IMG/VR virus record: IMGVR_UViG_3300005747_000209
Span: 1-23,250 of that record
Strand: one strand, 5' to 3'
Length of the DNA: 23,250 nucleotides
From: a virus
Numbering within the stretch: the stretch's first letter is position 1; every line of letters begins with the position of its first letter. Below are positions 2,444-23,176 of the stretch, piece after piece. Position numbers and translations under genes: made by a program. The notes beneath the pieces were generated by a model. It was not told the DNA's origin and searched no databases. It worked only from the letters and a program-made list of their open reading frames with translations.

Positions 2444-2453
2444 TATAAATATT
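2444..2453 (-). promoter_or_regulatory. Candidate promoter box AATATTTATA before the fibre gene
   Basis: The 11-base gap between the 324-aa gene and the fibre gene holds AATATTTATA in the gene direction, ending 3 nt before the ATG and overlapping the upstream stop codon. The same element recurs in other gaps. No TTTG lies 20 bases upstream. If this is a -7/-10 box, the transcript would start at or very near the start codon. Confidence 0.5.
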
Positions 2454-3426
2454 ATAAGTCTAGGTTAACTAATACAGTTGTGTCAGTAGTATTAGAACTT
2501 TGTAAGGGTTGTGATAACTTTCCTACAGCTACTAATTGGTTAGCATTATTATACAAACCTACTGTGGTAATATAAGGTTCAAAATAAGAACCTGTTAAAA
2601 AATCATACACTATACCACTATTTAAACTACTAGATATAGCTGATGGGTTTTGTGTATAATTGTATTCATTTGGATTGAAAGTACATTTATATTGTGATTC
2701 ATATATTGTAGTAGTACTTTGAAAAGAGCATGTTATATTAGCAGTTGTTATAACAGTATCTAATTCATTAGCTCCAGCACTAGAATATACCCCAGTCCCA
2801 TATATAGCTGAACCATAAGTACTTCCAGTAATAGAAGTACCAAAAGAAGTTAATACTATAATACCATGTTGGTATATTATATCTCCTACTTTAGACCCAT
2901 CTTTAAATAAGTTTCCATTTTCATCATCTGTGAATGTTCCTGAAATAGAACCATCATCATAAGAATATGAAAATGTTCCTGGTTTTATATATTCTCCAAA
3001 TAAATTTGAAGGTATGGATATAACTCCTATCCTATCATTTGATGCTGTTGGAAATAACCTATTAGCATCTAAAGTATCTGGTAAGTAATTATCATACATT
3101 GGTTGGTAAGAACCACTACCTCCTTCTATTGTTATAGTTCCATCTGGGTTTGTCTGAGGTAAATTAGCTGGTGAACCATCCATTCCAAATAAGTAATTGG
3201 AATAATATAATTGTTTAGCTGATTCGTATATTAAAGCTTGAGATTGGGATACTATCTCTCCTGTTAGTTCTGACCCAGAAATATAAGGTGTATTTTTACC
3301 AAAAAATCTATCTATGCCTACATTTGAGGAAGTAAGTTCACTTGCCCCTTTGAAAGAAAAACTCTTGTTTACTTTAAATGGAGTTACAACAACATCCGAT
3401 GTGATAAAAGGCTTGTAAACACTCAT
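2452..3426 (-). CDS. Virion structural protein, paralogue of the 337-aa upstream gene
   Basis: A 324-aa protein of unknown function in the tail/baseplate block. Its last ~75 residues align by eye with those of the gene just upstream: YITTVGLYNNANQLVAVGKL here against YITTVGMYNDANELIAVAKM there. Both are preceded by a Y/FNYxxNPS motif and followed by a short tail ending in a charged beta-strand (VNLDL / VKLDF). A segment near residue 190 (GDIIYQHGIIVLT) is matched less well by GLFLPDIGTILLN in the partner. The sequence is rich in Ser, Thr, Tyr and Asn and looks mainly beta, with no signal peptide. The start at 3426 follows the upstream stop by 5 nt (TAGGATGAATG), so the two are probably co-translated. 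A role as an accessory baseplate or fibre-attachment protein is an inference from position. Confidence 0.85.
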   Translation of the reverse strand: MSVYKPFITSDVVVTPFKVNKSFSFKGASELTSSNVGIDRFFGKNTPYISGSELTGEIVSQSQALIYESAKQLYYSNYLFGMDGSPANLPQTNPDGTITIEGGSGSYQPMYDNYLPDTLDANRLFPTASNDRIGVISIPSNLFGEYIKPGTFSYSYDDGSISGTFTDDENGNLFKDGSKVGDIIYQHGIIVLTSFGTSITGSTYGSAIYGTGVYSSAGANELDTVITTANITCSFQSTTTIYESQYKCTFNPNEYNYTQNPSAISSSLNSGIVYDFLTGSYFEPYITTVGLYNNANQLVAVGKLSQPLQSSNTTDTTVLVNLDL

Positions 3427-3431
3427 TCATC

Positions 3432-4445
3432 CTAAAAATCTAATTTAACTCTTACTAATGATTCTTTTGTAAAATCTTTAAGTAATGGTTTTGACATTTT
3501 AGCTACTGCTATTAATTCATTAGCATCATTATACATTCCTACAGTTGTAATATAAACTTGAGGATTGTTAATAAATTGTTCGTAAATTATCTCACCTGTT
3601 GAACCTGATATAAATGATGGATTTTCTGAGTAGTTAAATTCACTATTTCTTGATCTAACAAATACATAATCTGATGTTATTGTTTCTTGAGCATTTAATT
3701 GAAATGAACTACCTAAAACTAATGAATCATATAAAGTAGCCTGATTAGTACCGTTTGTTAAATCTGCTGCTCTATTTGGTACTAAATTAATTGATTCTGA
3801 AATTGCATCTGGATTTAATAATATTGTTCCTATGTCTGGTAAAAATAAACCATATGATCCTGATCCTGGAGCATATCCTGAATTTGCTGCTATAGCACTA
3901 CCATTAGAACCTGATACTATCTGGAATACTCTATTTGAACCTATAAAAGTTTGAACATTAACATCATTTGAGTTATCTGTTAATTCTAATAAACCTCCTG
4001 AACCTGATAATTTTATATTAAAAGTTCCTGGGAATAATTTTTCTTTATATCTAGCTCTCTCAACTGATAATGCCCAAAAATCATTTGGTGTGAATACATT
4101 ATTGTCTGTACCATATGAGAAATTTGTATTTTCATCTTCTAAAACTAAAGTTCTATATTGGCCATAAACTGTTCTTGATGGTGTAAGTGAAGGAACAGCA
4201 CCATTATAATATTCACTTCCTAAACCATTAACATTACCATAAGTAATATCGAATTGAACAGTTGTATCAGAACCTGTAGCGTTTGCTTGATATACACTTA
4301 AGTAAAAATTTCCTGATGTACTTCCAGCTTGAACTGAAGAAGTATAAAATGATGTTAGTGTAGGTAAACCTGTTGACCAGGCTGTAGATTGTACTGAGTC
4401 AGCACTTACTACAAAATCTTCTGCGTCTAATCTTTTGAATCCCAT
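3432..4445 (-). CDS. Virion structural protein, upstream member of the tandem paralogue pair
   Basis: A 337-aa protein of unknown function. It shares its C-terminal region with the following 324-aa gene: the FNYSENPS motif, YITTVGMYNDANELIAVAKM, and a final strand ending VKLDF. The N-terminal halves have diverged, so the C-terminal part is probably the shared assembly or attachment region and the N-terminal part the variable one. The composition is Ser/Gly/Asn-rich and typical of phage virion beta-structure. The start codon follows an A-rich gap (TAAAAAATAAAAAATGG) with no Shine-Dalgarno sequence, 10 nt after the stop of the 221-aa gene. It probably belongs to a three-gene unit starting at 5121. 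Confidence 0.85.
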   Translation of the reverse strand: MGFKRLDAEDFVVSADSVQSTAWSTGLPTLTSFYTSSVQAGSTSGNFYLSVYQANATGSDTTVQFDITYGNVNGLGSEYYNGAVPSLTPSRTVYGQYRTLVLEDENTNFSYGTDNNVFTPNDFWALSVERARYKEKLFPGTFNIKLSGSGGLLELTDNSNDVNVQTFIGSNRVFQIVSGSNGSAIAANSGYAPGSGSYGLFLPDIGTILLNPDAISESINLVPNRAADLTNGTNQATLYDSLVLGSSFQLNAQETITSDYVFVRSRNSEFNYSENPSFISGSTGEIIYEQFINNPQVYITTVGMYNDANELIAVAKMSKPLLKDFTKESLVRVKLDF

Positions 4446-4455
4446 TTTTTATTTT

Positions 4456-5121
4456 TTATTTAGTAGTTTGATTAATGGTAATTGGAATTGTTAATCTAGC
4501 ACCACTGTCTAGTCCCACTACTGTTAAGGTTGTATTAATTGAAGTATTAGACCCAAATAAAGTATTAACTGTAGTTGCTCTTAAATTAATCTGAGTGCCT
4601 ATTACAGTTGAAGATACATTAGTACCTAATGTTGTTGTTGAAGTAGCATTTTGGTTTGTTGCTGCTGTACTTTGAATTCCTACTCCATTAAATGTAGACA
4701 TTAATCTAACATCTGCTATTGTAGCTGTGTAACCAGAAGTTTCTACAGCTGAGGCATTACCTAAATAATTTAATGTTTCTGGTGATAATGTAAAAGTACC
4801 TCCTTGTGGCATTGTGAGTGCGGAGACATTTAAGTTTAATACTGGTAGAACTGCTGTACCTCTTGGTAAAGTAGTTAATTTATACTTCATTATTTGGCTT
4901 TCATCTGGAAATGCTTCTAATAAAGGCATTCCATCTATGGCTTGTCCATAATATGCTGATCCTGATGGATTGTCAGGGTTGTAAAGTGTGTAATCTATTT
5001 CATCATCTGCTAATGCAAATTGTGTAATTCTAAAAGAACCATCATTTTTAGCTAATAACTCTCTGCCCTTTTTTGTTAAGATGGCATCTACTGTTATAAC
5101 TTGATTATTTAAATATCCCAT
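4456..5121 (-). CDS. Conserved-looking virion-associated protein of unknown function
   Basis: A 221-aa protein beginning MGYLNNQVITVDAILTKKGR, followed by a segment containing FRITQFALADDEIDYTLYNP. The highly structured N-terminal ~95 residues (GRELLAK, ADDEIDYTLYN, AYYGQAI, MPLLEAFPDES, IMKYKLTTLPRGT) look like a compact conserved domain. The remainder is a Thr/Ser/Asn-rich beta region. From memory, similar N-termini occur in structural proteins of environmental T4-like phages, but I cannot verify that here. Its position before the paralogue pair and after the 890-aa protein places it in the baseplate/fibre block. It is probably the first gene of a unit, because the 38-bp gap before it holds two copies of the ATATTTAT-like element. 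Confidence 0.85.
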   Translation of the reverse strand: MGYLNNQVITVDAILTKKGRELLAKNDGSFRITQFALADDEIDYTLYNPDNPSGSAYYGQAIDGMPLLEAFPDESQIMKYKLTTLPRGTAVLPVLNLNVSALTMPQGGTFTLSPETLNYLGNASAVETSGYTATIADVRLMSTFNGVGIQSTAATNQNATSTTTLGTNVSSTVIGTQINLRATTVNTLFGSNTSINTTLTVVGLDSGARLTIPITINQTTK

Positions 5122-5134
5122 GTTTTTTATTTGT

Positions 5135-5162
5135 TATAAATACAATATACTAATAAATATTA
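5135..5162 (-). promoter_or_regulatory. Candidate promoter with two box copies before the 221-aa gene
   Basis: In the gene direction the gap reads AATATTTATTAG, a short spacer, then GTATTTATAAC ending 15 nt before the ATG at 5121. The distal copy overlaps the stop codon of the 890-aa gene; the proximal copy is at 5135-5142. Either could be a -7/-10 box. A TTTC, not TTTG, lies about 19 nt upstream of the proximal copy. Confidence 0.45.
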
Positions 5163-7832
5163 TGAAATCAAACCTTTTTCAGTAAGGTCTAATATAATTT
5201 CATTTACTCCTTTATCTAATTCATCTACTACATATTGAGGTTTAATGATTGCTGTACCACTTGCACCAGCTGGTTTGACTGCTTGAAATATCACATAATC
5301 ACTATTATCAGTATATCTTCTAACATTAAACCAATCCCATTGTAATGTAGCTTGAGATCCTGATGCTTGGTATGAACTTGCAATTGGTAAAGGTTCTGTA
5401 AAAGTTACTTTAATTGAGCCTTGACCTAAATTTCCAGTTGGATCAACTTCTACACTTTCAACAGTAAAAGTTTGTGTTTCTACACCCATAAATCTGAATT
5501 CATCAGCAGGTTGGAATTCAATTGGAGAAGTTATAGTATCAAATCCCCAACCATCCACAGTTTCTTGCTTATAAGCACCTCCATATGCTTCAAATAATTC
5601 AGCTGATGAAGTTAAAGTAAATGTATTATCTCCGTTAGTATCAGTTGCGTAGGAAGAAGTTAGACTCCATATATAATTCCGTTCATTAGAATTAGGTGAG
5701 GCTGTAATGTTTATATCTGGGGATGGGAATTGGTATGATCTGACTGATGCGTCTTCTTCTATTACTAGGTATCCTGTTTCATCTCCTTGAGGTGGTCCAT
5801 CTTTTTGTGATGTTGCAAATTCTTTATATGATACTACCAGTGATGGTTCTATAGCAGTATTTTGATTAATTCCAGGAACATCAAATTCTATTTCAATATT
5901 AGATTTAGCTCTCCATTCATTATCCCAATTATTTTGATTAGCTTGACCTTCAGCCCATAATACTACACCAAATCTACTAAGAGTAGGATCATACAAATCA
6001 ACTATATTTAGTGGACTAGCAGAAATGCTTGAACCCCCATCATATCCTACTGTTTCAGTTCTAGTTCCTTTTGTTTTTAATTTATAAGGAGGTATCATTT
6101 GACCAGTTGTATTATCATACAAATCAAAATAAACTGCTATTCTTCTTCTCCATTTTAATGATGATTGAGGATTTGTATTTTTAACTGTTAATTTATATTT
6201 TATTGTAGAAACTATACCTTTTTGATTACTATCTGGGGTAGTATGATAATGATTACCTTGCCATAAACTAGCAGCATCTGTTATATCAACAGGTGCATCA
6301 TTAGCAAAGTTAAAAGTTTTATTAGGGAATGAAAGAGTATAATTTTGTAGAGGATCTCCATCAACTCCTAATGTAGTGCTTGAACTACTTATATAATTAA
6401 ATTCAAATCTATTTGTAGATTGATTTGATGTATCAAGAGGATTTGCATTTGTTATAATAATATCATTTGGGAAATTATTTTCAGGTGCTGCTGTTACTGA
6501 TCCGTATTGTGTTGTAAGAATATTTTCAATTTTTGCCCCACCTCTGATTATTTTTCTTAGTCCTGATAGTGAGTTTTGAAGTGTTGGATCATCTGCTGTT
6601 AAGGTGGCTTCTAAATTTTCTCCATTTCTAAAAGCATTTTGGAGATTATATAATGAAAATTCATTTAAGTTTGGTTTTTCAACAGTTCCATCTTGATATA
6701 TAAGATATTTAATTTTAGCTGTCACAGCATCCATTCTTTCAGGAGCATTTCCTCCTATCCATTCACAAAATAATATCACATTGTTTAATGAATTTACATT
6801 AGGTAGTTTACCAAAATTTCCTTCATCTACAAGGATGATACTTGCACTTGGGTATTGTACTACTGTTGGTGGTGTCCATGTATTTATTTTTTGTGATGTA
6901 GATTTAGCCCCTAAATATCTTGGTATTATAGATGAAAGTTGAGTATAATGGGATTGTGGTATAGTTGATTTAACAGCGCTTCCACTTACTACAGCATCAA
7001 AATTTATTGGAACTGTGGTTGTAGTTGAATAATCTAAATCATTAACAAATGGATTTGGTATTCCTTGACTAACATTATTAATTAAAACATCACATCCTTG
7101 ATTAAAAAATAGTTGTGATAAGTAAGGTTCTAGTATTAATGATCTATCTACTGATGAATTAGTTGCTGTTGTGATTTGAAATTGGCTTGAACGTGAGATG
7201 GTGAAAGATATTGGTGTTAATGATGAATCTATATTAACCCTTAAGAAAAATGAGTCATTAGGTGCTACTTCAGCTGATGATGAAAATTCAAAATTGTAAC
7301 TTTGAGTTGCTCCATCAACACTAGGTTGCCAATTTAATTGATCAATAGTTTCAGCATTTCTATTTAAAGCTATAGTCCAATTAGAAGATAATTCATTTGT
7401 TGCTGTTATGGATCCTCCTGCTACTATTTTAGTTCCTACACTAGGGTATGTATTTTGAAATTTGTACACCTCTCCGGTTGTTGTTCCTACCCCAGTATTG
7501 ATAGTTTCAGTAGTAGCAAATGATTGACTATCATATAATATGTTATTAAAATCTACAATTACAGGGGTTCTTGCTGAGAAGGAACCATCCATTGATGAAG
7601 AAAAATCAAAATTTAAATTTGAATGATCAGCTAATGGTATATCATTATTTCCTGGTGGGTTAACATAATAAAGATAAAAATCATTTTGTCTAGTTCTATT
7701 TACTATAGGATACGTTCTATTACCAGCGCTTAAAGGAATTGTGATTTCAGTTAAATTTTCTAGAGTGTTAGTAATATCATTACCATCTCCATCTATTCTT
7801 GCTATTTTTATATATCTTACTTTTCCTGACAT
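5160..7832 (-). CDS. Large virion structural protein, 890 aa, function unknown
   Basis: A Ser/Thr/Asn-rich, mostly beta protein beginning MSGKVRYIKIARIDGDGNDI and ending with a conserved-looking segment (about residues 835-890) that contains WFNVRRYTDNSDYVIF, IKPQYVVDEL and LDLTEKGLIS. This C-terminal segment, with Trp, Arg-Arg-Tyr and a helical KPQY end, looks like an attachment domain. The central region is long and repetitive in character, without a recognisable enzymatic motif, signal peptide or membrane segment. It lies directly after the 1188-aa tail protein, with a 15-bp gap carrying a promoter-like box. A baseplate-peripheral or fibre-network role fits the position, but this is inference. 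The start at 7832 is supported by the box and by the upstream stop. Confidence 0.85.
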   Translation of the reverse strand: MSGKVRYIKIARIDGDGNDITNTLENLTEITIPLSAGNRTYPIVNRTRQNDFYLYYVNPPGNNDIPLADHSNLNFDFSSSMDGSFSARTPVIVDFNNILYDSQSFATTETINTGVGTTTGEVYKFQNTYPSVGTKIVAGGSITATNELSSNWTIALNRNAETIDQLNWQPSVDGATQSYNFEFSSSAEVAPNDSFFLRVNIDSSLTPISFTISRSSQFQITTATNSSVDRSLILEPYLSQLFFNQGCDVLINNVSQGIPNPFVNDLDYSTTTTVPINFDAVVSGSAVKSTIPQSHYTQLSSIIPRYLGAKSTSQKINTWTPPTVVQYPSASIILVDEGNFGKLPNVNSLNNVILFCEWIGGNAPERMDAVTAKIKYLIYQDGTVEKPNLNEFSLYNLQNAFRNGENLEATLTADDPTLQNSLSGLRKIIRGGAKIENILTTQYGSVTAAPENNFPNDIIITNANPLDTSNQSTNRFEFNYISSSSTTLGVDGDPLQNYTLSFPNKTFNFANDAPVDITDAASLWQGNHYHTTPDSNQKGIVSTIKYKLTVKNTNPQSSLKWRRRIAVYFDLYDNTTGQMIPPYKLKTKGTRTETVGYDGGSSISASPLNIVDLYDPTLSRFGVVLWAEGQANQNNWDNEWRAKSNIEIEFDVPGINQNTAIEPSLVVSYKEFATSQKDGPPQGDETGYLVIEEDASVRSYQFPSPDINITASPNSNERNYIWSLTSSYATDTNGDNTFTLTSSAELFEAYGGAYKQETVDGWGFDTITSPIEFQPADEFRFMGVETQTFTVESVEVDPTGNLGQGSIKVTFTEPLPIASSYQASGSQATLQWDWFNVRRYTDNSDYVIFQAVKPAGASGTAIIKPQYVVDELDKGVNEIILDLTEKGLIS

Positions 7833-7836
7833 TTTA

Positions 7837-7846
7837 CATAAATATT
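7837..7846 (-). promoter_or_regulatory. Candidate promoter box AATATTTATG before the 890-aa gene
   Basis: The gap reads TAAAAATATTTATGTAAAATG in pieces: stop, box, then a 4-nt spacer to the ATG. The box is AATATTTATG, one base different from the AATATTTATA form. There is no TTTG 20 bases upstream. The short spacer implies a start site at or beside the start codon. Confidence 0.45.
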
Positions 7847-7847
7847 T

Positions 7848-11414: not shown

Positions 11415-11419
11415 TATTA

Positions 11420-12921: not shown

Positions 12922-12930
12922 GTTTTAATT

Positions 12931-14787
12931 TTATAGTGGTACTACTCTACCTTTAATATCATTATTAGGATACTTTACTTCAAAAATACTAGGATCTAAT
13001 GAAGGGTAAATTACTTTATTTTGTGTTGCTGCTGATATATCATAAGCATATTGTGAGTATCCTGATGATGTTCCTGCTTTATTTGATATAATAATATCTT
13101 TTACAGTTTGTACACCTTCAATTTTATCTAATCTAACAAATAAATCTCTTACTAATATAGGTTGATTAATTTGCCAATTATCTCTTGCAAAATATTGTTG
13201 TAAAGATTGAATACAAGTTAATATAACATCACTGTTATTATAGTTAGGTAAAACTATTATTTCAAAATCTAAAGCTATATTAATAATAAAAGCATCTCTT
13301 ATTTCAATATTATCTCCAATCATTCTATATTGTGATAAGTAGGTTCTTAGATTTCTTTTTAATGTTTGTGTTGGTGTAGAAAATTGAGCTGATGAATTTT
13401 GAGATAAAACCCATAAATTTAATGTTTCTATAGTTGAAACTTGATCATCTGTTAATTTTGGTTTTTCAATAAAAGCTTTAGATACAGTTCCAAATTCAGA
13501 AGGCATACTTAAAGCTCTAACCATATAATCATCTAATGTAACTGATCTTTGTTGTGCTGCTATAGTTGATATAGTATTTTGTCTTAACTCTTCCTGTGTA
13601 TCACCTGCTTGACCTCCATCAGCAGCATCAGGATTTGTAGAAGCTATAGTTCCAAAAATATAATTAGAAGTAGTAGCATTTAAATTTGATGAATTGAATG
13701 TAGTATTTGAAGTATCTAATGTTGATAAATCTCCAGATGGAACATTAGATGCAACACCACCACCAGTTAAATATCTTACTGTTAAAGTAGTACTTGAGGG
13801 AGCAATACCATATGTTCCAGTATATAAGAAATTTGATGGAGAATATGCTGTTGTTAATTTATCTTTTTCAAATGGTAAACCAATACCAACATTGTCAGGA
13901 TTAGGTGTAATATTTTCATCCACATCATTCGGATTACCTGCTCCGAATTGGATTTGAAGATTTGTTTCTGAAGTTAAACGGGTTGCAAAACGTCTTTGTA
14001 CTTTTTTAAGTTGTAGTAAAAATGGAACTTCATCTTCATTTACTACATTAGGATCATTAATATTTGTATTTTTAATATTATCATAAATCATTTCTTGACC
14101 TAGATAATCTACCTCATACCAAGTATTTCCATCGCTATCCACTATATCTAAAATACCCATTATATTATTTCCTGTTATATCAATTGTTGGAAATTGTGTA
14201 GGAGAACCAAATGAAAAAGTTTGTGTATTAATGGTTGCTGATATTGAATTTCTTGTTTTCTTTAAAAGGTAAAACTGTGGTATATTACCTGCTATACTAT
14301 ATATCGATACTTCTGTTGGATCTAAAGAACTTGATGAAGAAAAATCACACTTATCTTCCATTAAAAAATTTACTGTTGTTGATAAAGATGATGCTATTGT
14401 GCTATTTTCTCCTATAGTTAAGGCATAATCATAATCAGGTACATAACTTGAACCATTTAATTTAGCTGGTACTTGTTGATATAGTTCTATTGTTGCTTGG
14501 GCTGCACCTGTGGCTTTTGGTTTGTAACCAAACATATAAGCAAGCTCATATAAATTATTAGTTTGTCGAGCAAATTGTGTGAAATTTTCTTGTAATTGGT
14601 TATCTAAGTAAAAAGACATTACATCACCTACATAAGCTGCCTGTTCCATAAACATCATTCCTGGTGATGTTGGTGAAAAGTCATTGTAAGTATTAGGGAA
14701 ATAAGTTTTAGAAAATTCTATTAACTTAGCTCTAATATCAGAAAAGTCTCTATTTATATATTTTACGTCTCTATCTACTGTTGCCAT
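12931..14787 (-). CDS. 6: Baseplate wedge protein gp6-like (baseplate J family)
   Basis: A 618-aa protein close to the size of T4 gp6 (about 660 aa). The N-terminus has the characteristic layout: KYINRDFSDIRAKLIEFSKT, then YFPNTYNDFSPTSPGMMFME and QAAYVGDVMSFYLDNQLQEN, followed by NLYELAYMFGYKPKATGAA. The C-terminal half holds the baseplate-J-like core: TLDDYMVRALSMPSEFGTVS with AFIEKP, LRTYLSQYRMIGDNIEI, and a final KIEGVQTVKDIIISN. In T4, gp6 dimers form the continuous ring that ties the wedges together and controls the baseplate change at infection. It overlaps the gp25-like gene by one base (TAATGGC), and gp25 is a direct structural partner of gp6 in contractile baseplates, so the neighbourhood supports the call. 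Confidence 0.93.
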   Translation of the reverse strand: MATVDRDVKYINRDFSDIRAKLIEFSKTYFPNTYNDFSPTSPGMMFMEQAAYVGDVMSFYLDNQLQENFTQFARQTNNLYELAYMFGYKPKATGAAQATIELYQQVPAKLNGSSYVPDYDYALTIGENSTIASSLSTTVNFLMEDKCDFSSSSSLDPTEVSIYSIAGNIPQFYLLKKTRNSISATINTQTFSFGSPTQFPTIDITGNNIMGILDIVDSDGNTWYEVDYLGQEMIYDNIKNTNINDPNVVNEDEVPFLLQLKKVQRRFATRLTSETNLQIQFGAGNPNDVDENITPNPDNVGIGLPFEKDKLTTAYSPSNFLYTGTYGIAPSSTTLTVRYLTGGGVASNVPSGDLSTLDTSNTTFNSSNLNATTSNYIFGTIASTNPDAADGGQAGDTQEELRQNTISTIAAQQRSVTLDDYMVRALSMPSEFGTVSKAFIEKPKLTDDQVSTIETLNLWVLSQNSSAQFSTPTQTLKRNLRTYLSQYRMIGDNIEIRDAFIINIALDFEIIVLPNYNNSDVILTCIQSLQQYFARDNWQINQPILVRDLFVRLDKIEGVQTVKDIIISNKAGTSSGYSQYAYDISAATQNKVIYPSLDPSIFEVKYPNNDIKGRVVPL

Positions 14788-15194
14788 TATGTAAAGGATA
14801 TTTGCAATGTATCATTAATGTTAGTATTTGAAACACTATATGTTAATTCTACTGTTATGGTATTATTATCTTCCTGTTTTAGGATTTCTAAATTACCTAT
14901 AATTATATTTGGAAAAAATAAACCTAGATCATTAGAAATTCTTTGTTCTAGAAAATCTAAATTATTTGTTGTAATTTGTTCAAAAATGAATGCTCTTAAT
15001 CCACCACCAAATGTTGGATTTAAAGGTCTTTCACCTGGGTTTGTTAAGAAATAATTAATTAAATTATTTTTAATAGCAGCTGCCGTTGTATAATTAGGTT
15101 TAAATACTCCAGGGGATGAAAATGGAATATCTACTCCTACAGCTGCACTTTTATTAAAGTCAATTGGTGATATTTGTTGAGCATTAAACGCCAT
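14787..15194 (-). CDS. 25: Baseplate wedge protein gp25-like (GPW/gp25 family)
   Basis: A 135-aa protein matching the usual length of T4 gp25 (132 aa). The family hallmark is present at about residues 36-66: AAIKNNLINYFLTNPGERPL followed by NPTFGGGLRAFIFEQ, with the conserved Gly-Glu-Arg before the Asn-Pro-x-Phe-Gly turn. The C-terminal half supplies the amphipathic helix (LDFLEQRISNDLGLFFPNI) and the last beta strands. In contractile tails, gp25 joins the inner baseplate to the sheath and helps trigger contraction. It overlaps both neighbours by one base (TAATGGC at each side) and is therefore translationally coupled to the 124-aa protein and to gp6. Confidence 0.92.
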   Translation of the reverse strand: MAFNAQQISPIDFNKSAAVGVDIPFSSPGVFKPNYTTAAAIKNNLINYFLTNPGERPLNPTFGGGLRAFIFEQITTNNLDFLEQRISNDLGLFFPNIIIGNLEILKQEDNNTITVELTYSVSNTNINDTLQISFT

Positions 15195-15568
15195 TATCTA
15201 TTTGTCATTAATCCCATTATTTGATCCATATTTACTTCTCCTCCTGGTAGTTGACCATTTGGTGAAGTAGTATCTACATTACCTTGTGGTTTAAAAGGTT
15301 GAGAATTAAAATTTTGAGCATGACTGCTATTTAAATTTATAGCAGTTTCTCCTAATACATCCATATATGCTTTTTTCTTATCCATTAAAGAATGAGCTGG
15401 TGGTGATTGTACAACTGGTACTTGTGTTGTTGATGTTATTGTTCTATTTTCTTGAATTGAAGTTGGTTTAGGTGCTCTTACAGCTTCTAATAAAACTTCT
15501 TTTAATTCTTCTTGGATAGCTTCTTTAACTGATTCCTTGATTAATTTTTTTAATAACGTGGTTTTCAT
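15194..15568 (-). CDS. Small protein of unknown function in the baseplate operon
   Basis: A 124-aa protein. Residues 1-30 (MKTTLLKKLIKESVKEAIQE and the following EELKEVLLEA) form a strongly amphipathic charged helix. The middle and C-terminal portion is Pro/Ser/Gln/Asn-rich and probably unstructured, ending with a short helix (MDQIMGLMTNR). No catalytic motif, signal peptide or membrane segment is visible. It is the first gene of the unit containing gp25 and gp6: a promoter-like box ends 11 nt upstream, and its stop overlaps the gp25 start. The helix-plus-disordered-tail layout suggests a scaffold, chaperone or minor virion component, without firm support for any of these. Confidence 0.8.
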   Translation of the reverse strand: MKTTLLKKLIKESVKEAIQEELKEVLLEAVRAPKPTSIQENRTITSTTQVPVVQSPPAHSLMDKKKAYMDVLGETAINLNSSHAQNFNSQPFKPQGNVDTTSPNGQLPGGEVNMDQIMGLMTNR

Positions 15569-15579
15569 GTTGTGTTTTT

Positions 15580-15589
15580 TATAAATATT
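15580..15589 (-). promoter_or_regulatory. Candidate promoter box AATATTTATA before the gp25/gp6 unit
   Basis: In the 24-bp gap between the 672-aa gene and the 124-aa gene the gene-strand sequence contains TATAATATTTATAA, with the core ending 11 nt before the ATG at 15568. No TTTG lies 20 bases upstream. It would start a unit of about six genes (124 aa, gp25, gp6, 388, 111 and 1188 aa). Confidence 0.5.
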
Positions 15590-15592
15590 ATA

Positions 15593-17611: not shown

Positions 17612-18882
17612 TATTTAGTTTTTATGGTTTTTGATTTAAAGGATTCTATATTTTTAGAAACTCCTCCAGCTATACTTTGTAGAGCTAATGCTGTGGTGAT
17701 TACATTAGCTTTAGGGACAGCGACACCTGATGGCCAGTTTTGTTCTTTTGAAAGTTCACCACAAAGATTTTGTAGTGCTTCCATTACTTGATCAAGTTGT
17801 GCTAAAAAAGTATCTCCTAATATTAAAGATTCAGTAGCATCATAACTACCTAATTTTACATTTTGAGACTCTATCACCATTTTATTAGTATCAAAATTAA
17901 TATTGTCTGTTGATGATAAAGATATTGATTTTTGAGCATTTAATAATATACTATCTTGTCTAGCATTTAAAACTAATCTATCAGATCTTATTATAACTTG
18001 GGGACCACCAGCGTATAATTTAGGTTCTATAGGTTGATTATCTTCAGTGAATGATTCAATTTGATTTTTCCAAGGTTTACCATTAAATTCAATAGGTATC
18101 TGTTGATTAGAGGTCATATAAATTGAAGATAAATCCCAATTTATTTTTTCATTTATTGGAGTCCATGGGTTATTTGGTAATTCACTATTTAATATAGGTT
18201 GACCATTTCTTAAAATTAAAATAGGATCACCAGTTTGGGCTTGTGTTGGGGTATTGAATATTCTACTCTCACCTTTATATTTAGACCAATCATTTATTCC
18301 ATTATTATTATCTGGTCTTTGGTTGGTACTACCAAATCTTATACTATTGCCAAATCTTCCTTGTTGGATAACATCACCCATATAAGGTTGTAAGGGATGA
18401 ATATTATCTCTTTCTCTAAATGTACCCTGAATACTAGGAAGAGATTCATTAGCCTTAGATGATAAATTTACTGGGGATGAGTCAAAAATTTGATTATAGG
18501 ATTTATTTTCTGATGATGGTATATTACCGTTAGTTTTGTCAGGATTTGGATAAAAATTTACATGTGGGTTATTCCAAATATTAACAGTATTTATATAATA
18601 TAATTTTTCATTAGCTTGTTGTGAACCTATATATTGTGATGGTAAATTAAAGCATAAAACTATTTCATCTATTAAAGGATAAGAAGTATTATTTGGAAAA
18701 AAAGGGTAAGCTTTTTGTGTTGTGTTTGTTTTATTAGCAATAGATTCAATTTCAATACAACCTAAATCTTCATCATCAGTTCCAGTCAAGTAGATATTTT
18801 TAACCCTACCCGTTATAATATTACCTTTAAAATCTGATAGAGATGTATCTGTTTGATTATTAAATCCAAATTCTCTAATCAT
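17611..18882 (-). CDS. 5: Central spike / baseplate hub protein, gp5-like, without a lysozyme domain
   Basis: A 423-aa protein. The N-terminal part (about residues 22-90) looks like the OB-fold of gp5/VgrG/gpV spike proteins: GRVKNIYLTGTDDEDLGCIE, then AYPFFPNNTSYPLIDEIVLC. Residues about 165-235 carry QQGRFGNSIRFGST and GDPILILRNGQP. The stretch at about 295-350 has the short-strand repeat expected of a trimeric beta-helical needle: VIIRSDRLVLNARQDSILLN, AQKSISLSSTDNINF, and the following strands to VKLGS. A C-terminal helix (FLAQLDQVMEALQNLCGELS) follows. T4 gp5 carries a lysozyme between the OB-fold and the needle; nothing of that kind is visible here. The start ATG overlaps the stop of the 119-aa gene by 8 bases. 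Confidence in the family is good; the symbol denotes position and fold, not tested orthology. Confidence 0.82.
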   Translation of the reverse strand: MIREFGFNNQTDTSLSDFKGNIITGRVKNIYLTGTDDEDLGCIEIESIANKTNTTQKAYPFFPNNTSYPLIDEIVLCFNLPSQYIGSQQANEKLYYINTVNIWNNPHVNFYPNPDKTNGNIPSSENKSYNQIFDSSPVNLSSKANESLPSIQGTFRERDNIHPLQPYMGDVIQQGRFGNSIRFGSTNQRPDNNNGINDWSKYKGESRIFNTPTQAQTGDPILILRNGQPILNSELPNNPWTPINEKINWDLSSIYMTSNQQIPIEFNGKPWKNQIESFTEDNQPIEPKLYAGGPQVIIRSDRLVLNARQDSILLNAQKSISLSSTDNINFDTNKMVIESQNVKLGSYDATESLILGDTFLAQLDQVMEALQNLCGELSKEQNWPSGVAVPKANVITTALALQSIAGGVSKNIESFKSKTIKTK

Positions 18883-19234
18883 CTTTATTTTCTTTTTTGG
18901 GTGGTAATTGGAGTTTATTTATTTCGGAAAGTAATTGTTCTTTTTCTTCTTCAGAAATACCAAATCCATTTTCTTCTGTCCCTTCATTTGCAAATATACG
19001 TTGGAAGATAGTTGCAACTTTAATAAGTGCTTCATCATTTTTAATACCTAATTCCATATATTCTTTAATAAGTGGTACAATCATTGTAGCATCACCTATA
19101 TCACTGATTAATGGTTTTAATTCATTAATTAATGCACTAATTTGATTTTCTTTTTTCTTTTGGTTGTCATATATCTCTTTTAAGAGATCAGAGTAGGATT
19201 TTTTCCCGAATATTTTTTTATCTAAATGGCTCAT
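18875..19234 (-). CDS. Small helical protein of unknown function preceding the spike gene
   Basis: A 119-aa, highly charged protein. It starts MSHLDKKIFGKKSYSDLLKE and continues as predicted helices, with a middle segment MIVPLIKEYMELGIKNDEAL followed by IKVATIFQRIF, and an acidic, Lys-rich tail. No membrane segment or catalytic motif is seen. Its stop overlaps the spike start by 8 bases, so it is coupled to the spike gene, and a promoter-like box sits upstream, which makes it the first gene of that unit. It could be an assembly chaperone or a regulator of late genes; the sequence alone does not decide. Confidence 0.8.
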   Translation of the reverse strand: MSHLDKKIFGKKSYSDLLKEIYDNQKKKENQISALINELKPLISDIGDATMIVPLIKEYMELGIKNDEALIKVATIFQRIFANEGTEENGFGISEEEKEQLLSEINKLQLPPKKENKDD

Positions 19235-19254
19235 ATTTATTAGATTTTTATGGG

Positions 19255-19264
19255 TATAAATATG
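19255..19264 (-). promoter_or_regulatory. Candidate promoter box CATATTTATA before the spike unit
   Basis: The 35-bp gap between the sigma-factor gene and the 119-aa gene contains CATATTTATA in the gene direction, about 20 nt upstream of the ATG at 19234. No TTTG lies 20 bases upstream. This is the first structural-block promoter candidate after the sigma gene. Confidence 0.5.
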
Positions 19265-19269
19265 AAGAA

Positions 19270-20022
19270 TTACTCTTCTTGAAATTCTATATAGCCTGTA
19301 TTTAAGAAGAAAATATAATTGTCTTTAAATAAATTATATAATCTACCTGCTATTTTTGTAATTTTAGGAGTTTTTACTTCTAGACCATTAGTGGCCATTA
19401 TTTCCCTGATATAGATGTATAGGGCTTTTTTATTAAAAATTTCTATACTTTCTCTTTTTCTAAATAATTCTAATATAGCATCTGCTATTTGGGCATCATT
19501 TCCTTTTGGGAAGAATTTTTCAAAATTGTCTTCAACATATTTAATATATCTATCCATGAAATAAGATAATTTTTCTATACCTTTATCATCTTCTAGATTA
19601 TAAGAATACTTTTCATCCTTATATAAGTCTTCAACTGGTGCTTTGTCTATTCGTTTTTTGTAATTTTTAGTATTATATAGTATAAGCCAACGTTTTACTA
19701 TAGTACCAAAATAAGAATAAGCTTTAGCGCCCCTACTAGGATCAAATAAATGAATTTTCTTTAATAAAAATGTTATTATTTCATGTTGGAGATGCTCTAT
19801 TTTATCTACTTCTGTATAGTAAAATTTAAAAGTATGAATTATATTTTCTGTAAGTTTAAAAAATGGATAATGGATCTCATTACCATATATTTTACTTTTT
19901 AATTCTGGGTCATCACTATTATTATATCTAACTATAGCATCCTCAGTGGCCTGAGTGAAATAGTTTTTTGATTTAGGTCTTCTTTTCTTGACTACCTTTT
20001 TCTTTTCTTTTTTTTCACTCAC
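19270..20022 (-). CDS. 55: Phage late-transcription sigma factor, gp55-like
   Basis: A 250-aa protein with a GTG start at 20020-20022; no ATG gives a better start, and the upstream gene ends 2 nt before it. The N-terminus is a Lys-rich leader (MSEKKEKKKVVKKRRPKSKN). The core (about residues 40-115) resembles sigma region 2: NEIHYPFFKLTENIIHTFKF, IEHLQHEIITFLLKKIHLFD, then FDPSRGAKAYSYFGTIVKRW. The FDP-S-x-G-x-K-A-x-SYF motif is typical of T4-type late sigma factors in environmental phages. The C-terminal part (about 150-250) is helical with no obvious sigma region 4. T4 gp55 is about 185 aa, so this version is longer. It lies next to the structural block, whose gaps carry a shared box, and it probably directs host polymerase to those late genes. 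Confidence 0.85.
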   Translation of the reverse strand: MSEKKEKKKVVKKRRPKSKNYFTQATEDAIVRYNNSDDPELKSKIYGNEIHYPFFKLTENIIHTFKFYYTEVDKIEHLQHEIITFLLKKIHLFDPSRGAKAYSYFGTIVKRWLILYNTKNYKKRIDKAPVEDLYKDEKYSYNLEDDKGIEKLSYFMDRYIKYVEDNFEKFFPKGNDAQIADAILELFRKRESIEIFNKKALYIYIREIMATNGLEVKTPKITKIAGRLYNLFKDNYIFFLNTGYIEFQEE

Positions 20023-20024
20023 AA

Positions 20025-20309
20025 TTACTTGATTCTTTTTACTTTAAAATCATTAAGGATATTTTGAATTTGTTGTATAGCTTTGAAAAAATGTCCTACC
20101 TCATCATCAGATTTAAAGGTTCCTGCGTTATCAATTTCCTTAAGTTTTTTATCAGAAGCTTCAATAGTTTTAGAAATTTGATCTAGATATTGAATATAAC
20201 CCATAAGGATATCTTCTTGTTTTTCATTCTTTTTAAGGAGGTTAATAGTTGTAAATATTAAAATTACAGCTAAAACTGATAACACTGATATTATTACTAT
20301 TTCAATCAT
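20025..20309 (-). CDS. Small membrane-anchored coiled-coil protein
   Basis: A 94-aa protein whose first 25 residues (MIEIVIISVLSVLAVILIFT and onwards) form one hydrophobic transmembrane helix. A charged helical region follows (LLKKNEKQEDILMGYIQYLD, QISKTIEASDKKLKEID), suited to a coiled coil, with a basic end. There is no lipobox or signal-cleavage site, so it is probably a single-pass inner-membrane protein with its bulk in the cytoplasm. It overlaps the HD-domain gene by 4 bases (ATGA) and the sigma gene starts 2 nt after its stop, so the three are co-expressed. Its function is unknown. A spanin or holin role is possible in principle, but the gene context offers no lysis partner. Confidence 0.8.
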   Translation of the reverse strand: MIEIVIISVLSVLAVILIFTTINLLKKNEKQEDILMGYIQYLDQISKTIEASDKKLKEIDNAGTFKSDDEVGHFFKAIQQIQNILNDFKVKRIK

Positions 20310-21064
20310 AGACTATTTAACATATTCTTTAAACCTTCACTCTTAATAGAACCAAGAGCTTTTGATTTAATGTTTGTTTTTGTTTTTTCTTTCTTTACTT
20401 CCTTCTTTCCAAATTTAGGTAACCATTCTTTTTCAAATTCAATTCTAGCAGCCATTAAATCGGCTTGATGTACTATATAAATTAAAGATGTTCTTGGTTT
20501 TAATTCTGGCATAAAGGCTTTTAAATAAGGTTCATTAGCAGGATCATATAATCCATCATGTAATCTTATTGCTAACCATTCATTTTTAGTTAATTTAATG
20601 TCATTGTCTACTAGAAGTTTTATACTACGTTCTGGTACTGACATAAAAGGTAATGCATCATTAAATTGATACATCTCACCTAAATTCTTTTTTCTCCATT
20701 CATCCTGAGATGGTATGTGAGCATAATTATCTTCATCTCCTAGTTTTCCTAAGTCATGATTTAAAGCTGAGAATACAAGTTCCTCAACTGTGTAATTTTG
20801 TTCTGCTCCGAATTCAACCCATATTTTATTAGTTGCTAAAGCACCTTCAATTACACGATTAACATGATCTACATACCCACCTGGAAATGAATTATGGTAA
20901 GCTTTTTTATGAGAAGCAGGCATTAACATGATTTCTTCTTCATGTTTTTTATAAAACTCAATTAATTTTTCTCTTCTAGGATCTGAAATGTAGGCGTTAA
21001 TATAACCTAACATTTTTTCCCAATTTGATTGGATTTGTTCTGCTTTTAATTCCATATTAATCAT
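20306..21064 (-). CDS. HD-domain metal-dependent phosphohydrolase
   Basis: A 252-aa protein with an HD-superfamily metal site visible in order: His57 in AYHNSFPGGYVDHV with His67, the His103-Asp104 pair in SALNHDLGKLGD, His169-Asp170 in AIRLHDGLYDP, and a late His199/Asp202 in YIVHQADLMAARIEFE. HD enzymes hydrolyse phosphoesters, including nucleotides and signalling nucleotides; the substrate cannot be read from this sequence. The C-terminal ~40 residues are Lys-rich and probably flexible. The start may be at 21064 (MINME), overlapping the 57-aa gene by 8 bases, or at the in-frame ATG at 21055, which would follow that gene's stop directly; the second gives a tidier junction. It sits in a four-gene cluster with the sigma factor, so it may act on host nucleotide pools or alarmones during takeover. 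Confidence 0.85.
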   Translation of the reverse strand: MINMELKAEQIQSNWEKMLGYINAYISDPRREKLIEFYKKHEEEIMLMPASHKKAYHNSFPGGYVDHVNRVIEGALATNKIWVEFGAEQNYTVEELVFSALNHDLGKLGDEDNYAHIPSQDEWRKKNLGEMYQFNDALPFMSVPERSIKLLVDNDIKLTKNEWLAIRLHDGLYDPANEPYLKAFMPELKPRTSLIYIVHQADLMAARIEFEKEWLPKFGKKEVKKEKTKTNIKSKALGSIKSEGLKNMLNSL

Positions 21065-21230
21065 TTTCTCTATCTACAATATCTCTTAGATCTTGAATTA
21101 CTTCAACAATTTCTCTTTGAACAGCATTAATTGTTTCTCTAGTTCCACCTCTATGGATTTCCATATCCAATTTCTTAAATTTACCATCTAATGTCTGTAG
21201 GCGGCGTTGCATTAACTTTTTATTTCTCAT
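21057..21230 (-). CDS. Small helical protein, 57 aa, unknown function
   Basis: A short open frame starts at the ATG at 21228-21230 (MRNKKLMQRRLQTLDGKFKK) and ends with TAA at 21057-21059. It is predicted all-helical and highly charged, with a heptad-like C-terminal half (TINAVQREIVEVIQDLRDIV). Its end overlaps or abuts the start of the HD-domain gene, as tightly as other genes in this phage. The charge pattern, absence of rare-looking composition and tidy coupling argue that it is real although short. No family is recognised. A role as a small host-takeover protein is a guess from its position in the pre-sigma cluster. Confidence 0.7.
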   Translation of the reverse strand: MRNKKLMQRRLQTLDGKFKKLDMEIHRGGTRETINAVQREIVEVIQDLRDIVDREND

Positions 21231-21291
21231 ATCAAATTTTATTAATAAAAAACAGTGAGAGTATCCTACCCCCTTATATTCAACCGAGTCA

Positions 21292-21312
21292 CGTTTCTCG
21301 TTTCTCGTTTTT
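21292..21312 (-). repeat. Tandem 7-bp repeat (AGAAACG type) in the 144-bp gap
   Basis: On the plus strand three consecutive units read CGTTTCT, CGTTTCT, CGTTTTT, and a related CGTTTCG lies at 21324-21330. The first unit also closes a small hairpin: CGAG at 21285-21288 pairs with CTCG at 21297-21300 across an 8-nt loop. This is the only tandem repeat I noticed in the window. The surrounding gap (21231-21374) otherwise has no gene, no T-tract terminator and no clear promoter box. Confidence 0.6.
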
Positions 21313-21374
21313 GTTTTTATTATCGTTTCGAGTTTATTAGTTCTTCTTTAAACCCGTATCCATAATATAACATC

Positions 21375-21842
21375 TTAGTTCTTGGGGGCCAAATTATCTT
21401 CTAGAAAAGTTATAATTTTTTGAATAAAGGCGCACTTTTCGTATTCTTCTATGGATTCAAAGAAATTTAATGTTGAGGAAAGTGCCTCTCCTAGTTTTTC
21501 TGGGTCTTGTATTCTCACACAATCACGCCACATTTCTTTATCAAGATTAGTTAATTTTAAATAATCCCAACCTCTATAGAAAGCCATATGTTGACCTGCT
21601 TCTTCTAAATCTCCAAAATCACCTAATTCAGGATCTGATTCTTTAAATAATTTTATTAACTTTTTTTGGAAGGTCATATGGTTTAAAACCACTTTTTGAA
21701 ACATTTTTAAATGATAAGTAGGAGTAGTCCTGAATTCATCAAATCCAATTATTCCTTTGATTTCTTCTTTAGAAGGTTCAGGGTAATTTTCATTAGGATC
21801 ATCCTTACCAAACATACCAAATATTTTATCAATGTCTATCAT
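21375..21842 (-). CDS. Acidic soluble protein, 155 aa, unknown function
   Basis: An acidic, predicted helical protein. The middle part (THLKMFQKVV-like segment, TFQKKLIKLFKESDPELGD, GQHMAFYRGWDYLKL) is compact, and the C-terminal ~30 residues contain FFESIEEYEKCAFIQKIITF, which weakly resembles the paired-helix UVR motif found in UvrB/UvrC-type proteins; I would not assign it on that alone. No signal peptide or membrane segment is seen. It is preceded by a promoter candidate with both boxes, 6 nt before the ATG, and followed by the 144-bp repeat-bearing gap, so it is likely a single-gene unit in the early or middle region. Its function is unknown. Confidence 0.82.
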   Translation of the reverse strand: MIDIDKIFGMFGKDDPNENYPEPSKEEIKGIIGFDEFRTTPTYHLKMFQKVVLNHMTFQKKLIKLFKESDPELGDFGDLEEAGQHMAFYRGWDYLKLTNLDKEMWRDCVRIQDPEKLGEALSSTLNFFESIEEYEKCAFIQKIITFLEDNLAPKN

Positions 21843-21848
21843 TGGTTA

Positions 21849-21880
21849 TAAATATGTGAAAGGAAATTTGGGAAGGCAAA
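21849..21880 (-). promoter_or_regulatory. Candidate Bacteroidota-type promoter, TTTG-N20-CATATTTA
   Basis: In the gene direction TTTG (21877-21880) is followed by exactly 20 bases and then CATATTTA (21849-21856), continuing TAACCA before the ATG at 21842. The layout fits the Bacteroidota -33 TTTG / -7 TAnnTTTG pattern except for the first and last bases of the -7 box. The -33 box lies directly after the stop codon of the 68-aa gene. The predicted start site is within a few bases of the start codon. Confidence 0.55.
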
Positions 21881-21881
21881 T

Positions 21882-22088
21882 TTAGTTTAAATTGAATTTT
21901 CTTAAAGTATAAAATTTACTCCTATCTTCAAGATCGTTTTCTTCTAAATCAATTAAAACATCTTTAAGAGATTGTGTATAACCTCGCATATAAAATATTT
22001 CACTCATTGAATAATTTTCAGCATTCTCTTCAATTTCTTTAGTATTATATTTAATAGCTTGTTTTAAAATATCAATGTATGCGTCCAT
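21882..22088 (-). CDS. Small acidic helical protein, 68 aa, unknown function
   Basis: A short protein beginning MDAYIDILKQAIKYNTKEIE, with a middle segment MSEIFYMRGYTQSLKDVLID and an acidic, then basic, C-terminus. It is predicted helical and resembles the small early proteins common in phages, with no motif that names a function. Start and stop are clear, with a promoter-like box about 16 nt upstream of the ATG and a second promoter just after its stop for the next gene. The intrinsic terminator of the DUF932 gene lies upstream, so this gene needs its own promoter. Confidence 0.72.
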   Translation of the reverse strand: MDAYIDILKQAIKYNTKEIEENAENYSMSEIFYMRGYTQSLKDVLIDLEENDLEDRSKFYTLRKFNLN

Positions 22089-22104
22089 AGTTTATGTCTA
22101 TGGT

Positions 22105-22114
22105 TATAAATATT
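22105..22114 (-). promoter_or_regulatory. Candidate promoter box AATATTTATA before the 68-aa gene
   Basis: AATATTTATAACC in the gene direction lies about 16 nt upstream of the ATG at 22088. It is the first such box downstream of the DUF932 terminator, which supports a fresh start of transcription here. No TTTG lies 20 bases upstream. A 5-bp hairpin (22132-22144) lies just upstream of it. Confidence 0.5.
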
Positions 22115-22131
22115 AAATTGGCGTTTTAAAT

Positions 22132-22144
22132 CGTCTAATAGACG
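22132..22144. repeat. Short perfect inverted repeat CGTCTAATAGACG
   Basis: CGTCT and AGACG flank a 3-nt AAT centre. It lies between the DUF932 terminator and the box upstream of the 68-aa gene, in the -18 to -30 zone relative to that box. It could be a small operator or a secondary hairpin. It is too short for confident assignment. Confidence 0.4.
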
Positions 22145-22155
22145 TGTTTATACCA

Positions 22156-22180
22156 ATAAAAAAGCCCCATATTTGGGGCT
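22156..22180 (-). terminator. Intrinsic terminator of the DUF932 gene
   Basis: In the gene direction AGCCCC, a 6-nt loop (AAATAT) and GGGGCT form a perfect 6-bp GC-rich stem followed immediately by TTTTTTATT. It starts 22 nt after the stop codon at 22203. This is the only classical intrinsic terminator I found in the window and it separates the DUF932 gene from the genes to its left. Confidence 0.88.
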
Positions 22181-22202
22181 AATTTGTAATTTAATTTTAA
22201 TA

Positions 22203-23009
22203 TTAAACTGTATATTCTAAAGCTAATTCAAATAATTCTTTATTAACTTTTTGATCTTGTTTAAAGTTTTTAATTTGTCTTGCTTTTCTAACTTTTCCAC
22301 CTGCAATATAAGTGAAATCACCATCAATAACTTTTTCTTGAACTACATTAAATATTGACCATAAATCTTTTCCACTATCTTCAACTCTAACTGGTGTTAA
22401 AATATCTTTAATATCAATTTTAATCCTTTTCATTTCTTTTTCATTGAAACGAGTTGTTAAAGCTTTTTTAGCAAATTCAACTGCTTTTTCTTCTTCCAAT
22501 TCAATATTTTTCATTTTATTCATTGATTCAACAGTTAAAGGTAATTTTTCAACCATTCCTTTGATTTTACCTTGTAACTCTTCAAATGTATAACCCATAT
22601 GTCTCATTTTAACATCTTCAAATTGTGTAGTTGAAATAACTAATCCATTTTCACAAACCATTCTAAACAATCCAGCAGTAAAAGTAAATGCATTTTTACC
22701 ATCATGACTATTTGTTAATAATACTTGTGGAAAAACTGTATCTCCATCTTCACCATTAATTACAACATCATTATTTCTAAACACAACTAAATGTTTTTGA
22801 TAACCTTTAGTGCTATTTTTTCTAGCTTTAACAGATTTTGCATCAACAACTCCCCAACCTAATGTTGCCATATCATCAATAACTTTACTTGTTGGAATAT
22901 GTGTGTAATGTTTTGAAACCTCATTTGATGCCTTTTCAGCAAATATAACAGGGCAAACTTCTTTTAATTCTTTTTTACTTAAAAACTCACTTTTTTCTAA
23001 ATTTAACAT
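22203..23009 (-). CDS. DUF932 family protein
   Basis: A 268-aa protein matching the DUF932 pattern of phage and plasmid proteins, usually about 250-400 aa. The core at about residues 73-127 includes LVVFRNNDVVINGEDGDTVF, PQVLLTNSHDGKNAFTFTAG and LFRMVCENGLVIS, followed by MRHMGYTFEEL. The molecular function of the family is not established. The C-terminal third is basic and helical. It has its own transcription unit: a promoter candidate at 23061-23092, a 5' hairpin at 23034-23050, an A-rich leader without a Shine-Dalgarno sequence, and an intrinsic terminator at the end. The divergent arrangement with the secreted-protein gene and its stand-alone expression suggest an early, strongly expressed phage gene. 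Confidence 0.88.
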   Translation of the reverse strand: MLNLEKSEFLSKKELKEVCPVIFAEKASNEVSKHYTHIPTSKVIDDMATLGWGVVDAKSVKARKNSTKGYQKHLVVFRNNDVVINGEDGDTVFPQVLLTNSHDGKNAFTFTAGLFRMVCENGLVISTTQFEDVKMRHMGYTFEELQGKIKGMVEKLPLTVESMNKMKNIELEEEKAVEFAKKALTTRFNEKEMKRIKIDIKDILTPVRVEDSGKDLWSIFNVVQEKVIDGDFTYIAGGKVRKARQIKNFKQDQKVNKELFELALEYTV

Positions 23010-23033
23010 AACTTTTATTTTTTTTAATTATTT

Positions 23034-23050
23034 GTTAAGTATTTCTTAAC
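23034..23050 (-). promoter_or_regulatory. 5' leader hairpin of the DUF932 transcript
   Basis: GTTAAG, a 5-nt loop and CTTAAC form a perfect 6-bp stem. It lies 10-20 nt downstream of the predicted -7 box, so the leftward transcript would begin at or just before this stem. Such 5'-end hairpins can protect an mRNA from decay. An operator at this position is the alternative, because the sequence is also a DNA palindrome. Confidence 0.5.
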
Positions 23051-23060
23051 TCTTACCTCA

Positions 23061-23092
23061 TAAATATAACGTCTATTCTACCGGAAGCCAAG
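23061..23092 (-). promoter_or_regulatory. Candidate promoter of the DUF932 gene, CTTG-N20-TATATTTA
   Basis: In the leftward direction CTTG (23089-23092) is followed by 20 bases and TATATTTA (23061-23068), then TGAGG. Three of four -33 bases and most of the -7 bases agree with the Bacteroidota consensus. The predicted start site, about 23050-23055, gives a leader of some 40 nt before the ATG at 23009. The spacer contains a GC-rich patch unusual for this window. Confidence 0.55.
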
Positions 23093-23139
23093 CGCCTGTA
23101 CAGTAAGGGTTAAGGGAGGTTTAAAGAAGTAATACACAG

Positions 23140-23171
23140 TTTGCATATTACATTAATATTACTTATATTTA
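23140..23171 (+). promoter_or_regulatory. Candidate promoter of the rightward gene, TTTG-N20-TATATTTA
   Basis: TTTG (23140-23143), exactly 20 bases, then TATATTTA (23164-23171), followed by TTAAT and the ATG at 23177. This is the best match to the Bacteroidota -33/-7 consensus in the window. It is the only such element pointing right and belongs to the only rightward gene, which supports the orientation assigned to the other boxes. The start site would be at or beside the start codon. Confidence 0.62.
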
Positions 23172-23176
23172 TTAAT

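Follow-up and report, generated by a model that had tools for sequence, protein, structure and literature searches.

A gene-oriented octamer resembling a T4-type late promoter with an altered core, and a gp55-like sigma factor as its candidate reader, in relatives of Flavobacterium phage immuto

The stretch of viral DNA analyzed here (hereafter the window) comprises positions 1 to 23,250 of the IMG/VR record IMGVR_UViG_3300005747_000209, 23,250 nucleotides with a G+C content of about 30%. It carries 21 densely packed leftward genes and a single rightward gene, of which only the beginning, from 23177, lies inside the window. The leftward genes include several for the baseplate or tail, with PHROG baseplate wedge matches at 12931-14787 and 14787-15194, and one that has been modelled as a sigma factor similar to gp55 of phage T4. 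The element in question is an A/T-rich octamer, ATATTTAT, found in the gaps between these genes and originally predicted, from the sequence, to be a promoter signal of the phage. The closest cultured relatives are Flavobacterium phage immuto, which shares 45% identity with the window in the sigma and wedge proteins, and Microcystis phage Mel-JY01, and we infer a Bacteroidota host for the window phage. Further relatives were collected by scanning viral_contigs with the window sigma protein, which gave 80 loci of 72-98% identity, and with the immuto sigma protein, which gave 80 further loci and at least 600 candidate stretches, while the Mel-JY01 sigma as query added none. These relatives are contig fragments with mechanical gene calls, and many of the loci are close kin, so the de-replicated counts are the more trustworthy ones. 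A tblastn search with the sigma protein listed only immuto isolates, LR756508 and Mel-JY01.

The exact octamer occurs ten times in the window, on the minus strand except for two plus-strand copies (Table 1). The original prediction had listed nine gaps, all of which do hold the core or a variant of it; its positions were counted from zero and need one added, its entry at 5135 is the variant GTATTTAT, and it missed both the exact copy in that same gap and the plus-strand copy at 19233. The latter, the only exact copy against the gene sense, is probably due to chance, as start-codon contexts at this place differ among the relatives.

Table 1. Promoter-like elements, terminator and sigma factor gene in the window (nt, nucleotides)
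Feature	Position	Strand	Remarks
Late-type box ATATTTAT	2445..2452	-	4 nt upstream of the start of gene 2-2440; no -33 TTG
Variant box GTATTTAT(AA)	5136..5143	-	second box in the gap upstream of 4456-5121; 14 nt to the start codon region
Late-type box ATATTTAT	5153..5160	-	first of two boxes in the gap upstream of 4456-5121; no -33 TTG
Late-type box ATATTTAT	7838..7845	-	5 nt upstream of gene 5160-7832
Late-type box ATATTTAT	15581..15588	-	12 nt upstream of 15194-15568; ahead of baseplate genes
Antisense ATATTTAT	19233..19240	+	adjoins or overlaps the start codon region of 18875-19234
Late-type box ATATTTAT	19256..19263	-	upstream of 18875-19234
gp55-like sigma factor gene, 250 amino acids	19270..20022	-	sigma region-2 domain at about 20-142; C-terminal helical domain at about 148-242
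-7-like element TATATTAT, putative sigma-operon promoter	21362..21369	-	from orthologous upstream regions
-33-like element TTTGG, putative sigma-operon promoter	21389..21393	-	
Early-type box ATATTTAT	21848..21855	-	upstream of 21375-21842; TTG exactly 24 nt upstream
-33-like TTG of the 21848 box	21877..21879	-	20-nt spacer to the T-12 position
Late-type box ATATTTAT	22106..22113	-	upstream of 21882-22088; 3' of a terminator
Intrinsic terminator AGCCCCAAATATGGGGCTTTTTT	22158..22180	-	between the DUF932 gene and the 22106 box
Early-type box ATATTTAT	23060..23067	-	upstream of DUF932 gene 22203-23009; TTG exactly 24 nt upstream
-33-like TTG of the 23060 box	23089..23091	-	
-33-like TTG of the 23165 box	23141..23143	+	
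Early-type box ATATTTAT	23165..23172	+	4 nt upstream of the rightward gene at 23177; TTG exactly 24 nt upstream

The total of ten copies matches the chance expectation of 9.4, so that, as the original prediction had recognized, the case rests on location. All ten copies lie in gaps, which amount to 618 nucleotides in all, and nine of them read in the gene sense, the box of the rightward gene included. Only 8.4% of A/T-only octamers as a class fall in gaps, which gives P of about 2e-11 for ten out of ten if independence is assumed, and together with its complement ATATTTAT is the most gap-confined octamer of the window. The comparison with shuffled sequence, proposed beforehand as a possible refutation, brought out enrichment instead: among 5000 dinucleotide shuffles of the gaps, the mean count was 0.35 and the maximum 4. 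One-mismatch forms of the octamer were below the chance level in the window.

The same counting in the relatives confirmed the enrichment. In de-replicated gaps, the window clade has 32 sense copies of ATATTTAT against 3.5 expected (2 antisense), and the immuto clade has 23 sense copies of CTATTTAT against 0.9 expected (1 antisense), while the gaps of Mel-JY01 hold 14 sense copies of ATATTTAT against 2.5 expected (1 antisense). The T4 late box TATAAATA, counted in its T4 sense in the gaps of the window clade, the immuto clade and Mel-JY01, was not enriched (1; 10 against 6.5 expected; and 2, respectively); it is TATTTATA and ATATTTAT that are enriched in the sense direction. Applied to the T4 late region as a control, the procedure returned TATAAATA as the top octamer. 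The box is present in three sigma-carrying clades and not in four Bacteroidota control phages, FCL-2, 6H, phi38:1 (50 kilobases) and crAss001 (50 kilobases), in which sense copies of ATATTTAT numbered zero, without enrichment; the sigma protein was not listed for these four phages by tblastn, and their records were not searched separately. As a separate observation, Cellulophaga phage phi38:1 has a gene-oriented word of its own, CACTATCAAAA, in about ten gaps (10 against 0.2 expected), which is a possible expression signal.

The boxes fall into two classes, told apart by a TTG upstream. In the window, where TTG makes up 2.2% of trinucleotides, it stands exactly 24 nucleotides upstream of the boxes at 21848, 23060 and 23165 only, and in immuto it precedes all 16 ATATTTAG boxes at exactly that distance (TTG-N20-TATATTTAG) and none of the 15 CTATTTAT boxes. 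Gene by gene, the box is conserved together with its class. It is kept before all 51 orthologues of gene 15194, 78 of 79 orthologues of gene 18875 and all 15 orthologues of gene 21882, with TTG at the right spacing in none of these boxes, and it is kept before 44 of 49 orthologues of gene 21375, with TTG at 23-25 nucleotides in 35 of the 44, and before 7 of 9 orthologues of the DUF932 gene 22203, with TTG at 24 nucleotides in all 7. The rightward gene has it in three of three cases, the window's own copy counted, while genes that are boxless in the window have essentially no box among their 23-80 orthologues each. In immuto, 16 of 26 boxes without TTG lie inside virion-gene blocks, compared with 3 of 21 boxes with TTG (Fisher p 0.001). 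Furthermore, of 124 de-replicated boxes, 13 have a terminator hairpin within 75 nucleotides upstream, and none has one downstream. The proposal of a promoter signal has thus gained support from gene orientation, conservation per gene, position after terminators and, in a subset, a TTG at fixed spacing.

In Flavobacterium, the -7 element TAHHTTTG spans positions -12 to -5 and lies 4-5 nucleotides from the start site (PMC6847099, PMC9723704). Boxes with TTG have the appearance of early promoters of the Bacteroidota host type, with -33 and -7 elements, and boxes without it, mostly before virion and neighbouring genes, resemble T4 late promoters. This corrects the original prediction, in which all boxes of the window were treated as one class. 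A -33 TTG about 20 nucleotides from the -7 element was found at the early-type boxes only; the -7 consensus TAHHTTTG itself was not found at the window boxes, which read ATATTTAT. G-5 is absent from both classes in the window, and T-12 occurs mostly in the TTG class only: across the window clade, T precedes the box in 9 of 12 boxes with TTG and in 7 of 28 without, as is expected if only the former class follows the host consensus. In Mel-JY01 the classes differ in sequence too, since TTG-N20 precedes 11 of the 14 TAHHTTTG elements in gaps (TTG-N20-TATATTTG or TTG-N20-TAAATTTG), an outright match to the Bacteroidota sigmaA consensus, while 12 of 13 ATATTTAT boxes have no TTG. In immuto, at 22-25 and 60-76 kilobases, the early promoters also share an extended downstream sequence, ATATTTAGGTATCAATAATTAAAAC, that reaches far past the core.

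By its modelled fold, the gene at 19270-20022 encodes a sigma factor. Pfam Sigma70_r2 matches 30 of 44 family members (best E 2.5e-4), with the window protein under the Pfam gathering score, and when a gp55 profile was compared with all open reading frames of these phages, the immuto and LR756508 proteins ranked highest and the window protein fourth, all of them weak. An earlier model from a shallow alignment was poor (predicted local distance difference test, pLDDT, 63), and an AlphaFold2 model from a 44-sequence alignment reached a pLDDT of 74. Its best VIA-align match was T4 gp55 in a promoter complex (7d7c_F; Z 10.5, root-mean-square deviation 3.5, 116 residues), and all 50 entries listed were sigma factors or RNA polymerase sigma-like chains. 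A PHROGs search gave no match under 1e-3, the late sigma family phrog_234 being hit weakly (E 0.063), and no PDB sequence was matched in a profile search. Beyond the part that corresponds to gp55, about 100 conserved C-terminal residues follow, with the motif KKALYIYIRE; this domain has no Pfam assignment and, by Pfam, no sigma region 4, and the alignments contain no obvious C-terminal clamp motif such as LDFLY.

The operon of the sigma gene has no ATATTTAT box upstream. Instead, TTTGG-N20-TATATT with an exact 20-nucleotide spacer is found in 42 of 52 orthologous regions upstream of the operon, and the 144-nucleotide gap at 21231-21374 shows the promoter-like pair TTTGG-N20-TATATTAT. Downstream of the putative start in this gap, the words TCCCATCACGGG and repeats of GTGAC are strongly conserved in the relatives, and the gap possibly encodes a leader RNA.

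From the location, orientation, conservation and two classes of the boxes and from the sigma fold, we infer where transcription would start, which sigma would read each class and in what order. The probable reading is that of a T4-type late promoter with an altered core, [A/C]TATTTATA, read by a gp55 homologue, the core being common to two promoter classes. Early-type promoters, TTG-N20-[T]ATATTTA(T/G), would be a variant of the Bacteroidota sigmaA -33/-7 pair (TTTG / TAHHTTTG) and be read by the host RNA polymerase. Late-type promoters would consist of the core without a -33 element, ATATTTAT(A) in the window clade and CTATTTAT or ATATTTAT in the immuto clade, and be read by host core RNA polymerase with the phage sigma. 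The putative promoter of the sigma operon likewise contains a -33 element, from which the proposed order follows: host sigmaA would read the early promoters, TTTGG-N20-TATATTAT among them, the phage sigma would then be made, and the late boxes ahead of virion genes would open.

Several points weigh against this reading. In immuto, 10 boxes without TTG lie outside virion blocks and 3 with TTG lie inside them, and in the window clade both classes have the identical octamer, so that the division there rests on the -33 element. The sequence link of the sigma to gp55 is weak (hhalign E 2.5e-4 to 4e-4, probability 34-43%), and Foldseek alone gave no PDB match under E 0.001. In addition, LR756508, the most distant carrier of a sigma homologue, has no box in 64 kilobases; either the sigma is not always accompanied by the box, or the LR756508 box differs. 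The gp55-like sigma, named as the obvious candidate reader in the original prediction, is still a plausible one on account of its fold and of the box in three carrier clades, and would be the factor that recognizes the late boxes.

Alternatively, host sigmaA might read all boxes, the late-type ones as weak -7 elements without a -33 element, while the phage sigma reads something else. The -33 motif of Flavobacterium johnsoniae is much less evident than its -7 element (PMC6847099), and ATATTTA is similar to the TAHHTTT part of the latter. However, of the six host positions that hardly vary, the late-type box is without G-5 and mostly without T-12, and C usually takes the place of A-11 in the immuto clade; Mel-JY01 has separate sets, TTTG with and TTTAT without the -33 element, and ATATTTAT is not enriched in the Bacteroidota controls. 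We regard this alternative as distinctly unlikely, and the simpler notion that the box is merely a host -7 element was set aside for the missing G-5 and T-12 of the late class and the boxless controls.

It is very improbable that the box acts in RNA, as a translation-initiation or RNA-processing signal ahead of start codons. Proximity to start codons would suit such a role, as would the likely hosts, which do not use Shine-Dalgarno sequences (PMC6847099), but the distance from box to start codon varies from 4 to more than 50 nucleotides, most genes in tight operons have no box, a subset has TTG at a fixed upstream spacing in the DNA, boxes follow terminators, and the known initiation determinants in Flavobacterium are A-3 and A-6.

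The boxes might also be ordinary T4 late promoters, TATAAATA, that face backward and give antisense transcripts. The complement strand does read ATAAATAT or TATAAATA, and the octamer had been described as the reverse complement of the T4 late box, which is true but misleading, TATAAATA being nearly palindromic. When both are read in one direction, six of the eight positions of TATTTATA and TATAAATA are identical and the two central bases differ, so no reversal is needed. Nearly all boxes lie between co-directional genes and would face the upstream gene in every gap, TATAAATA in the sense direction is not enriched, and the -33 TTG is on the sense side; the idea, rejected on orientation, is extremely improbable. 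Chance in gaps of 76% A+T, with an octamer total as expected, is practically negligible, refuted by the gap shuffles (observed count reached in 0 of 5000) and by per-gene conservation across relatives.

If the late boxes are T4-type, the system can be compared with known ones. T4 uses TTGACA/TATAAT for early and TATAAATA for late promoters. As in the T4 gp55-gp33-gp45 late system, a single A/T box of 8 bp occupies the -10 region, without a conserved -35 or -33 element upstream, before virion genes, the phage encodes a protein of sigma-2 fold with gp55 as its best structural match, and early promoters are host-type with a -33/-35 element. Unlike T4, the core is TATTTATA, with two central bases changed, the sigma is longer by about 100 residues at its C-terminus, and in some genes the box lies 4-5 nucleotides from the start codon, closer than the T4 register allows. 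Early-type boxes, with TTG exactly 20 nucleotides before TATATTT(A/G), are like Bacteroidota sigmaA (sigmaABfr) promoters, from which the late-type boxes differ by the lack of TTG and G-5 and mostly of T-12. The T4 late promoter has been described as highly similar across phages of Escherichia, Vibrio, Aeromonas and cyanobacteria. Phages KVP40, 44RR, S-PM2 and Aeh1 likewise have single-box late promoters and a gp55 homologue, but theirs have been reported to resemble the T4 consensus strongly or to be closely related to it (PMC2988020), while the central bases are changed here. A late promoter of Bacteroidetes phages was not found in the open-licence PMC literature.

Start sites would lie a few nucleotides past the box. 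Several late-type boxes in the window, immuto and genes of the immuto clade end 4-5 nucleotides before the start codon, and with a start 3-5 nucleotides past the box, as in the host register, these mRNAs would be leaderless or nearly so, while in the T4 register the start would fall inside the start codon. Leaderless late mRNAs are therefore a prediction; in the host flavobacteria they are few, 5.5% (PMC9723704). The fuller proposal is that the gp55 homologue, with its second domain, combines in one protein what T4 divides between gp55 and gp33, that this joined late sigma acts on TATTTATA boxes near start codons, and that several late mRNAs are leaderless; it is tentative and rather doubtful.

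If the preferred reading of an altered T4-type late promoter is true, a large and abundant branch of phages, with this sigma in hundreds of viral contigs, has a changed late box, in likely hosts whose sigmaA is unusual and whose translation does not use Shine-Dalgarno sequences. Early and late genes of these phages could then be called by rule, a natural pair of sigma and promoter would be available to study how sigma region 2 reads DNA, and the predicted leaderless mRNAs could be tested directly.

Mel-JY01 (PP395634.1) deserves a separate remark, because its early promoters read TTG-N20-TATATTTG and its closest relatives infect Flavobacterium, while its recorded host is a cyanobacterium; this record may be mistaken, or a Bacteroidota host may have been present in the culture. 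This phage also encodes ribosomal protein bS21, and several of its late genes have a GGAG-like sequence ahead of the start codon. This would agree with a published proposal in which bS21 from phages alters start selection on Bacteroidota ribosomes (PMC9723584).

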